The notes beneath the pieces were generated by a model that did not search any database, was not told the DNA's origin, and saw only the letters and a program-made list of their open reading frames with translations. DNA of 33,686 nucleotides from Spartobacteria bacterium (GTDB taxonomy: Bacteria; Verrucomicrobiota; Verrucomicrobiia; Chthoniobacterales; UBA10450). Below are positions 13,485-22,429 of the stretch, piece after piece (position 1 is the first letter of the stretch; each line of letters opens with the position of its first letter). The DNA lies in NCBI GenBank assembly GCA_021324035.1, contig JAJPJU010000237.1:1-33686 (forward strand), given 5' to 3'. The position numbers were made by a program, and so were the translations under genes.

Positions 13485-13847
13485 ATGTTCCAGATAATTT
13501 TTAACGAACTGAGCGCGGCCGAGATGTCGGCGTTGCCGAAGAAAATGCAGCTCGATCTTCTGGCGGAATTTCAAATTTTGCCGGAAGACCTCGATCATCT
13601 CGACGCGAAGCATTTTGGCGTGATCGAGCGGGAGGGAAAAAAGTTATATCGTTACCGCGCGAAAGATTACCGGATTTATTTCGAACAAACCTCGGAAGGA
13701 GTCACCATCCACCGCGTTTTGCACAAGAACACGTTTCGCGATTTTCTTTTCCGCAGCAAACTTCCGGGCTCGGAAGACCAGGCGCTCGGCGGAACGCGTG
13801 AGTTCTGGAAGCTGATCGACGAAGGAAAGAAAACCCGGAAAGCGTGA
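13485..13847 (+). CDS. RelE/ParE-fold-like small protein
   Basis: FGVIEREGKKLYRYRAKDYRIYFEQTSEGVTIHRVLHKNTFRDFLFR resembles the RelE-superfamily core (KxxYRYRxxDYRIxYE...H). Confidence 0.5.
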   Translation: MFQIIFNELSAAEMSALPKKMQLDLLAEFQILPEDLDHLDAKHFGVIEREGKKLYRYRAKDYRIYFEQTSEGVTIHRVLHKNTFRDFLFRSKLPGSEDQALGGTREFWKLIDEGKKTRKA

Positions 13848-14191
13848 GACGAGTCATATTATTATTCGCTCTTGGAGCAGTGGCGCTCGTTTTTGGCGGT
13901 TGCTATAGCTGGCGCGAAAGCCAGGTCACGGAAACTAAAAAGCGCGGTGACGTCGTTCGTCACGCTCTAAACGAATACCGTACGAAAACCGGTTCATTTC
14001 CCAAGAGCCTCGATGCACTTGTGCCGGAGTATGTGAAGGTAATTCCGCAACCGACCGTTGGGAGGAGAGCATGGAATTACAAAGCATACCTGGACAATAC
14101 AGGTTATCTTCTGTCGGTCGCGCTGCGTTCAGAACGCGAACCAGAACTGCACGCGGCCGAAACGGGCGAATGGGTTTATCACACGAAATAG
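13844..14191 (+). CDS. Small lipoprotein, possibly related to the pseudopilin GspG C-terminal region
   Basis: Lipobox-like VFGGC; HALNEYRTKTGSFPKSLDALVPEYVKVIPQPTVGRRAWNYK; GTG start overlaps the previous stop. Confidence 0.55.
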   Translation: MRRVILLFALGAVALVFGGCYSWRESQVTETKKRGDVVRHALNEYRTKTGSFPKSLDALVPEYVKVIPQPTVGRRAWNYKAYLDNTGYLLSVALRSEREPELHAAETGEWVYHTK

Positions 14192-19718: not shown

Positions 19719-19860
19719 AATCCGAAACCCGAATCTCGAAATCCGAAACAAATCCGAAATTCGAAGTCCGAATATTAAAAGCGGATTAGACGTATTTGAA
19801 TTTTGGTCGTTCGGGTTTGTTTCGAGCTTCGTGCTTCGGATTTCGAGTTTCTTGTTAATC
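19719..19860. repeat. CGAA-heptamer inverted repeat element (copy 1)
   Basis: Left arm heptads CGAAACC CGAATCT CGAAATC CGAAACA (AATC) CGAAATT CGAAGTC CGAATAT (19723-19775); right arm roughly 19796-19856 in opposite orientation. Confidence 0.85.
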
Positions 19861-19879: not shown

Positions 19880-21004
19880 GTGGGTGTCGTGAACCGACTG
19901 TTTTGTGCCGTTCTTTTGGGCGCGGCCTTGCTTTCGAACGCGAGCGCTGCGGGAAAGGAACCTGGCTGGGACCCGACCCACACCTGGATTTTCGCGGTCG
20001 GTGTTTTGCATTGGAAACACAGCGAGATGTTCGGTTCGTTTCCGGTCAAGGAACGGCGCGATGCCGAGCTGGTTGATTTTTTCAAACAACACGGTGTTCC
20101 GGCGGACCACATCGTTTACTTGCAAGATGAAAATGGAACTCAGAAACGGATCGATGCGGCGTTCAGAAGCGAGTTGAAAAAGATCGGCCAGAACGATCTG
20201 CTCATTGTTTATTATGCGGGTCACGGTTCGAAATCCGACAAAGGCCAGGACGTTCATCTCGCTTCCTACGACGCCGGCGACGAAGACGTTGCGGGTTGGT
20301 CAGTGAATTCGATTCCGAAAACAATCAGCGCGAACTCTTCAGGTCAGCGCGTGCTCTGGTTCATTGATTGTTGTTACTCCGGGCAAGCTGCGCGCGCGAT
20401 CGCAAATTCGGAAGGTTCCCCGGCTTACGCGTGTGTGACTTCATCTTCAGCCAGCGAAAGCTCGACCGGGCATTGGACGTTTACTGAAGCATTGCTCGAT
20501 GCGTTGCGCGGGGCCGGATATGTCGATCTCAATCACGACGGCGTGATCACGCTGGCAGAATTCGCGGCGCACGCGCACGCCGACATGGCGTTAGGCGAGG
20601 AACAGCTTTCAACTTTCGCCACCACCGGCGGATTCGATCAGCAAATGGTCCTCGCGCGCGCTTCAACGCTCAAAAGCCCGCGAGTAGGCGAACGCGGTCA
20701 AATCCAATGGCACGCCGATTGGTGGCCAGTGCGAGTGGTTGAGGAGAGCGGCGAGAAATTAAAAGTGCATTACATCGGCTACAGCGCGGGCGACGATCTG
20801 TGGGTCACCCCGGACAAGTTGCGTCCCATCAAGCCAGTGCAATACGCGGTGGGTAGCGAAATCGAAGTGCTTTGGAAAAAGAAATGGTATCCCGCGAGGG
20901 TATTGAAGGTGGAGGAGGGCATTCATCTGATTCATTACACCGATTACGATTCGAGTTGGGACGAATGGGTTGCGTCAAAACGGATCCGCCACGCAAAATC
21001 CTGA
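19880..21004 (+). CDS. Secreted caspase-like (C14/orthocaspase) protease with EF-hand and two C-terminal Tudor/chromo-barrel-like repeats
   Basis: Signal peptide NRLFCAVLLGAALLSNASAA; YYAGHG (His115) and DCCYSG (Cys165) catalytic motifs; EF-hand loop DLNHDGVITLAE (216-227); repeats GERGQIQWHADWWPVRVVEESGEKLKVHYIGYSAGDDLWVTPDKLRPI and VGSEIEVLWKKKWYPARVLKVEEGIHLIHYTDYDSSWDEWVASKRIRHA. Confidence 0.88.
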   Translation: MGVVNRLFCAVLLGAALLSNASAAGKEPGWDPTHTWIFAVGVLHWKHSEMFGSFPVKERRDAELVDFFKQHGVPADHIVYLQDENGTQKRIDAAFRSELKKIGQNDLLIVYYAGHGSKSDKGQDVHLASYDAGDEDVAGWSVNSIPKTISANSSGQRVLWFIDCCYSGQAARAIANSEGSPAYACVTSSSASESSTGHWTFTEALLDALRGAGYVDLNHDGVITLAEFAAHAHADMALGEEQLSTFATTGGFDQQMVLARASTLKSPRVGERGQIQWHADWWPVRVVEESGEKLKVHYIGYSAGDDLWVTPDKLRPIKPVQYAVGSEIEVLWKKKWYPARVLKVEEGIHLIHYTDYDSSWDEWVASKRIRHAKS

Positions 21005-21014
21005 CGGAATTAAT

Positions 21015-21090
21015 AGACAGGATTCACAGGTTTTTTTGGATTGGGTCCGAAGAACGGTTTGAAATCCTTTTAATCTTGTTAATCCTGTCC
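21015..21090. repeat. Inverted pair of 9-bp-period repeats (ACAGGATTA type)
   Basis: Left agacaggatt|cacaggttt|ttttggatt. Reverse complement of right ggacaggatt|aacaagatt|aaaaggatt. Confidence 0.8.
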
Positions 21091-21469: not shown

Positions 21470-21535
21470 AAGCCTTCGTTTCACACGGAGCTTGTCTGTA
21501 CCAGGCAAAGCTCCTACCCTCGCAACAACTTGAAC

Positions 21536-22429
21536 ATGAGGACGAAAGAACTTTTTTCGAGATGTTGCGCGGTCGGCGGAATTGCGCTGGTTGCGTTCGG
21601 CATTACAGGCTCGGCCGGTGACAACGTCGCTATCGCGCTGGGGCAAATAAAAAATGCCGACCCGGATGCGCGCATTGAAGGAGTGCGGCAACTTCTGACC
21701 TCGCTCGATTCCAGAATTCCCGAAACGATGCTTTCGCTTCTGACAGACCAAGGCGATTCGATCCGAAGACTCGCCGCGCGCGCAATCGGCAGTCGCTGGT
21801 GGCAGATTCCAAAAGACAAAACCGCCGATTACACCAAGGCGCTCGCTCAAAATCAAAAGCCTGAAATGGATTTTGAAATGGAAAAGAACATGGCCGATCG
21901 CGCGATCGGTCTTCTCACGCGGCAATACGATTCAAAAATGTTTTCCAAGAGTCCGAACGGCCGCTGGGTGATTTACGAGCGTTACGGATTGCCGTGCTTG
22001 ATCGATACCACGACGGAGACCGAGGAACTGCTGGGCTGGCCCCGAGCGGAGAACGGGGACATGGACATGCTTGTATGCGCATTTGGCAATGAGCCCATCA
22101 GCGACGATCAGGCGGTTTGGCATCCGAGCAAAGAAGCGATAGCGCTTTCGGTTTTATTGGATCGCCGTTCGTCCACGGTGTGGATCTGGGAGCATAAGGT
22201 CGGACTGCAAAAATTACTGCGCTCGGAATTGGCTCGATTACTGCACCCAAAAGGAAAGGTTGATGAATCGTACGTAACCGATGCATCGATCAAGGGCTGG
22301 AAAGGCGACGAACTGCAAGTTTCGGCGACGGGAGGATTGGACGAGAACGACGGAGCATTACTTGGCTGGGATCTTGCCAAACGTAAATGGCGCGTCATTT
22401 CGCGCGGTAAGCAGAAGCAGTCCGACTGA
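21536..22429 (+). CDS. Exported protein with HEAT-like N-terminal region
   Basis: IALGQIKNADPDARIEGVRQLLTSLDSRIPETMLSLLTDQGDSIRRLAARAIG resembles HEAT repeats; ATG at 21536. Confidence 0.55.
   Translation: MRTKELFSRCCAVGGIALVAFGITGSAGDNVAIALGQIKNADPDARIEGVRQLLTSLDSRIPETMLSLLTDQGDSIRRLAARAIGSRWWQIPKDKTADYTKALAQNQKPEMDFEMEKNMADRAIGLLTRQYDSKMFSKSPNGRWVIYERYGLPCLIDTTTETEELLGWPRAENGDMDMLVCAFGNEPISDDQAVWHPSKEAIALSVLLDRRSSTVWIWEHKVGLQKLLRSELARLLHPKGKVDESYVTDASIKGWKGDELQVSATGGLDENDGALLGWDLAKRKWRVISRGKQKQSD

Follow-up and report, generated by a model that had tools for sequence, protein, structure and literature searches.

Chromo-like domains of secreted bacterial proteins were described in 2018 by Kaur et al. 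(PMC5906684). According to the main text of that paper, these domains occur in tandem and are commonly fused to caspase-like peptidases, the combination of a caspase with tandem chromo-like domains being one of the commonest linkages reported; EF-hands are listed among the other partners of the barrels, and the lineages named for the caspase fusion are planctomycetes, cyanobacteria, bacteroidetes and chloroflexi. Kaur et al. propose there that the barrels bind moieties resembling methylated lysine in peptides of murein or of the matrix, and they argue that secreted bacterial barrels binding cationic peptides gave rise to the chromatin readers of eukaryotes. On the peptidase side, extra C-terminal domains are known from prokaryotic orthocaspases, and the EF-hand motif is among the commoner additions in the archaeal ones. 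Orthocaspases have been reviewed as calcium-independent, a property tied to their lack of p10, and metacaspases as calcium-dependent, with one calcium site in p20 and another in the 280-loop of p10 (PMC5756287).

The window that we analysed, a stretch of 33,686 nucleotides, is one contig of the 2.76 Mb draft genome of a soil bacterium of the order Chthoniobacterales (phylum Verrucomicrobiota). Its forward strand, to which all coordinates of protein features below refer, contains at 19880..21004 an open reading frame exactly as described in the initial annotation, with a GTG start and 374 codons for amino acids. A second GTG at 19889 is an equally possible start, and upstream the reading frame is open for 4 codons only. 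The product, whose gene is the only C14 gene found in the host genome, carries a signal peptide, a caspase-like domain and at least one chromo-like domain, which are the features of the class of Kaur et al. The fusion architecture is thus not new, the same kind having been described in other bacteria in 2018 in the main text of that paper (PMC5906684). We read the protein, with a probability of about 0.6, as an exported Arg/Lys protease of the orthocaspase type, with a Ca2+-filled loop inside the catalytic fold and with barrels that would dock it on a ligand bearing a cationic group, the gene standing alone.

Full-length relatives were found at two levels, with 61-76% identity in the host genus and a sister genus of its taxonomic family, and with 25-38% identity further away within the class. 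The open reading frame is a real gene under strong purifying selection: dN/dS of the mature protein was about 0.11 against the full-length orthologue of the same genus and 0.10-0.19 against the other orthologues, these latter values being rough because dS is near saturation. When the rows of the family alignment were searched singly, the Agenet and Tudor-knot models each matched 11 of 11 relatives, and C14 matched 10 of the 11, the exception being a truncated row. The distribution of the gene is patchy, as it is absent from two other genera of the host's taxonomic family. The family alignment was the better probe for relatives; in 146 genomes, PF11717 alone matched only the window. A search of the plasmids in PLSDB gave only two matches, both weak and restricted to the caspase, and plasmid carriage was rejected on this basis. 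A truncated relative (L034:3-536) sits at the end of a contig binned as Candidatus Riflebacteria and is 48% identical across the EF loop and both barrels, which suggests either that the gene passed from one phylum to another or that the contig was binned wrongly.

In the host genus, the gene has an HlyD/ABC/MacB export operon on one side and a rhodanese gene on the other; it follows MacB after 161 bases on the same strand, both in the window and in the same-genus genome L032, a Chthoniobacterales bin and the closest named relative. It stays beside MacB throughout the host's taxonomic family, as would be expected if it belonged to the export operon and, for example, processed an exported substrate. 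In the sister genus, however, the block is conserved and the neighbours keep their order and orientation; only the caspase gene is reversed, still at its place between MacB and rhodanese (L033:8001-9095, L035:8019-9125, L099:7770-8864, L100:7699-8763 and L101:7455-8564). Co-transcription with MacB is therefore impossible there. All seven examined genomes of the family that carry the gene have it at this same locus, and its presence in either orientation argues against an operon role. Around the gene of three more distant relatives (L096, L097 and L098), none of the neighbours of the MacB/rhodanese block was found. Membership in the MacB operon was rejected on account of the inversion and we hold it to be very improbable; the caspase/barrel gene stands alone, with no conserved operon partner, and the genes around it offer no explanation of its role.

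Dispersed intergenic repeats flank the gene, at 19725-19772 and 21079-21089 of the window. The repeat AATCCGAAATTCGAA had 34 matches in the genome, with up to 1 mismatch, and none in a reversed control; TTAATCCTGTC had 20 matches in the genome and again none in the control. Other open reading frames of the window were also noted. The one at 21530-22429 (299 aa, without Pfam match) is 60% identical in L032, and in the sister genus no counterpart was detected. At 13485-14191, a match to a ParE-like toxin just above cut-off, 96% identical in L032, is directly followed by a small unidentified open reading frame.

The predicted Sec signal peptide, read from the sequence, covers residues 1-23 (19880..19948) and has a positive n-region, a hydrophobic core and a cut site between ASA and A. 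A comparable hydrophobic leader starts every full-length relative, which agrees with the signal peptide proposed initially. The leaders are unrelated in sequence: in the orthologue comparisons their dN was 0.9-1.8 (about 0.96 against the same-genus orthologue), as compared with 0.12-0.29 for the mature part, the signal peptide being far more diverged than the mature protein.

The caspase (C14) catalytic domain extends over about residues 30-262 (19967..20665), on the evidence of PF00656, NF047832 and Foldseek. The match to PF00656 (Peptidase_C14) covers residues 83-213 (E 9.5e-7, above the curated cut-off) and ends at profile position 195 of 233, and that to the subfamily model NF047832 covers residues 43-236 (E 2.8e-19, 69.5 bits, below the cut-off of 140). 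The caspase motifs had been placed correctly in the initial annotation. His115 in YYAGHG (20222..20224) and Cys165 in DCCYSG (Asp163-Cys164-Cys165, 20366..20374) are both conserved, and in an alignment of 38 C14 proteins they fall on the catalytic dyad of the 37 others. The AlphaFold model of the full-length protein is of moderate quality (mean pLDDT 65.9); Foldseek matched it to MALT1, legumain and metacaspases, and also to MBT, Tudor and Agenet modules. Past p20, the model shows strands and helices at residues 182-188, 201-210, 225-238 and 257-260.

Two acidic residues, Asp61 (20060..20062) and Asp163, are nearly invariant among the relatives and are predicted to belong to the S1 pocket. In the alignment, D61 falls on the D of the xxxDA motif of other C14 proteins, and D163 is the D of DCC. 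From the C14 alignment and the location of the metacaspase motif, we take D61 to be at the position of Asp95 of TbMCA2; D163, as the D of DCC, is placed by its sequence context directly at that of Asp211. In TbMCA2, Asp95 and Asp211 shape an acidic S1 pocket (PMC6426788), and the characterised C14 members other than caspases all cut after Arg or Lys (PMC5756287). The acidic S1 residues, taken together with the basic P1 of the non-caspase C14 enzymes, lead us to predict a specificity for Arg/Lys, not Asp. Both possibilities had been left side by side initially; we retain the first, the conserved D61 and D163 disfavouring Asp.

Caspase homologues act as effectors in bacterial immunity, and the present protein is matched by a PADLOC caspase model as well as by the model for EACC1-associated caspases; an intracellular cell-death or anti-phage effector was considered. 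Both matches are weak, however (69.5 bits against a cut-off of 140 for NF047832), no defence gene was matched among the neighbours tested and no partner gene is conserved, while the signal peptide is conserved in every full-length relative. We rejected the defence effector in view of the weak model matches and the tested neighbours, and we give this explanation very little credit.

A calcium-binding element had been read in the initial annotation as an EF-hand fused to the protease. The 12-residue loop itself stands: DLNHDGVITLAE, at residues 216-227 (20525..20560), has the canonical spacing and fits the strict pattern D-x-[DN]-x-[DN]-G-x-[ILV]-x-x-x-E, which arose in only 29 cases when the mature protein was shuffled 20,000 times; chance does not account for it. 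All 11 relatives, the most distant of them 25% identical, retain the ligand positions 1, 3, 5 and 12, and this includes L010, in which the glycine of the loop is lost. Because of this conservation, metal binding by the loop appears likely. The fused domain, in contrast, does not stand. Pfam EF-hand models matched weakly and to a single loop (EF-hand_5, E 0.018, below cut-off), and neither an independent EF-hand domain nor a pair was recognised by domain models in the 374-aa protein. In the 38-protein alignment, the loop sits between the helix HWTFTEALLDALRG and a helix starting ITLAEFAAH, and these flanking helices (FT..LL.aL.G and IT..E(L/F)..) have counterparts in most of the C14 proteins aligned. 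A separate EF-hand domain was therefore rejected, and the element is better termed an EF-type loop in the caspase fold: by its position in the alignment, it decorates the catalytic domain. This region is presumably the small-subunit half of the fold. Around the loop, the model shows a helix (201-210), a strand (222-224), a helix (225-238) and a later strand (257-260); its confidence is lowest at residues 211-220 (pLDDT below 50), so that the geometry of Ca2+ coordination is not established by the model.

The strict EF loop was present in 14 of the 38 aligned C14 proteins, nine of which belong to the caspase/barrel family. Of the 28 C14 proteins outside the family, five have an EF-type loop in roughly this position and lack Tudor tails; in two of these it comes after a longer insertion. 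The remaining proteins have mostly a short plain loop at this position. The statement made initially that some orthocaspases are Ca2+-dependent does not agree with the review cited above, in which calcium dependence is given to metacaspases and calcium independence to orthocaspases (PMC5756287).

The C-terminal region contains two repeats, as noted initially, which we place at about residues 268-317 (barrel 1, chromo-like/MBT-like, 20681..20830) and 322-371 (barrel 2, Agenet/Tudor-knot, 20843..20992). Pfam matches to MBT (281-323), Agenet (325-371) and Tudor-knot (325-370) cover this region from residue 281 to 371, each above its curated cut-off. Aligned with each other, the repeats scored 84, as compared with a mean of 25.6 (s.d. 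5.4) and a maximum of 52 in 1000 shuffles; by sequence, then, one barrel is related to the other. The barrel-fold check called for initially was run with AlphaFold on residues 264-374 alone, and gave two five-stranded barrels (pLDDT 87.9; strands of barrel 1 about 90). Foldseek matched them to the tandem Agenet domains of AGDP/ADCP1, the FXR/FMRP Tudors, SGF29 and MBT repeats at E about 1e-4. The TM-scores were low (0.3-0.45 by query length) and the rmsd large, probably reflecting a different placement of the two barrels relative to each other; the match therefore concerns the fold and not the tandem arrangement. Domain matches, predicted structure and Foldseek thus support the initial description of an exported caspase-like protease with two C-terminal barrels of chromo-barrel/Tudor-like type. 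Five other apparently secreted Verrucomicrobiota proteins (L012, L013, L015, L028 and L031) have two or three tandem chromo-like barrels without a caspase, and three of them (L012, L015 and L028) have in common an extra C-terminal domain (GAxLRxExYY/FF...SLSL...WFFTK).

In the crystal structure of PHF20L1 Tudor1, the methyl-lysine cage is formed by Y24, Y29, F47, W50 and Y54 (PMC13285377). A phmmer alignment maps these residues to W332, Y337, Y353, Y356 and W360 of barrel 2, so that all five positions are aromatic; they are invariant in the five closest sequences. Barrel 1 has aromatic residues at four of the five positions (W277, W282, Y298 and Y301), with D305 in place of the last, and the first, W277, is not conserved among relatives. 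Position 360 is Asp in the distant relatives L008 and L009, and the full cage is therefore not universal. The weakened cage of distant relatives, together with the incomplete barrel 1, indicates that reading of methyl-lysine may not be the general function of the family.

These observations bear on a second explanation, according to which the barrels would be generic secreted SH3-type binders of peptidoglycan or matrix peptides without methyl-lysine specificity, and the loop a structural Ca2+ staple without regulatory role. Kaur et al. propose in their main text that bacterial chromo-like and SH3 domains bind peptidoglycan or matrix peptides (PMC5906684), and the incomplete cage of barrel 1, the loss of position 360 in distant relatives and the occurrence of the EF-type loop as an optional decoration of C14 proteins in the 38-protein alignment all fit this explanation. 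The five aromatic residues of barrel 2, invariant in the closest five sequences, would however not be needed by a generic binder. We consider this explanation possible, with a chance well short of even.

Our preferred reading, that of an exported Arg/Lys protease docked by its barrels, may be worked out as follows. The protease would be exported to the periplasm or outside the cell, where Ca2+ at extracellular level would fill the EF-type loop and stabilise or switch on the catalytic domain. Docking would fall to the barrels, above all to barrel 2 with its pocket of five aromatic residues; the ligand would be a peptide or a cell-surface component that carries a cationic, possibly methylated, amino group, and the orthocaspase-type enzyme would then cut after Arg or Lys close to the docking site. 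Against this reading speak the calcium independence reported for orthocaspases and the fact that neither a lysine methylase of secreted proteins nor a substrate is linked to the gene. A more specific version, in which a Ca2+-switched extracytoplasmic orthocaspase is steered by a barrel that recognises methylated lysine, or a comparable methylated amine, on proteins of the surface or matrix, seems to us rather unlikely. If true, this would be a protease coupled to a bacterial methyl-lysine reader that acts outside the cell, the first of its kind, and orthocaspases would no longer be uniformly indifferent to calcium.

As a gene architecture, the locus is one addition to a known list. In the literature that we examined, a measured ligand, including methylated lysine or arginine, was not found reported for bacterial chromo-like members. 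The present family could be used to test the idea that the chromatin readers of eukaryotes go back to secreted bacterial barrels that bind cationic peptides, and also whether calcium dependence is possible in a C14 enzyme without metacaspase p10. It is suited as a test case because it is compact (374 aa), conserved and open to clear mutants. A member that depended on calcium would depart from the calcium independence reported for orthocaspases, which makes a direct test worthwhile.

To the known systems the present work adds that such a protein occurs in Chthoniobacterales and has relatives in other families of Verrucomicrobiota, that its EF loop lies within the caspase fold, that its predicted specificity is for Arg/Lys, and that the cage is full in barrel 2 but partial in barrel 1. 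With the proteins of Kaur et al., the present protein has in common the signal peptide, the caspase-like domain and the tandem chromo-like barrels with aromatic cage residues; it differs from those named in the main text by its lineage, since the present family belongs to Verrucomicrobiota and has one relative from a bin of Riflebacteria; Verrucomicrobiota may be listed in the supplement. With orthocaspases such as MaOC1 of Microcystis it shares the His/Cys dyad and the acidic S1 residues, whereas the export signal, the in-fold EF-type loop and the Tudor-like tail set it apart. The predicted Arg/Lys specificity is common to type I metacaspases (TbMCA2, Yca1 and C. glabrata Mca1), and the C. 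glabrata metacaspase is a Foldseek match of the model. In contrast to metacaspases, no metacaspase p10 domain was identified; the calcium sites of metacaspases, in p20 and in the p10 280-loop, are not EF-hands. PHF20L1 Tudor1, the MBT repeats of L3MBTL and the tandem Agenet domains of plant ADCP1/AGDP, finally, share the barrel fold, and barrel 2 is aromatic at all five positions of the PHF20L1 cage. These proteins are eukaryotic intracellular chromatin readers, and the Foldseek matches have 13-21% identity.
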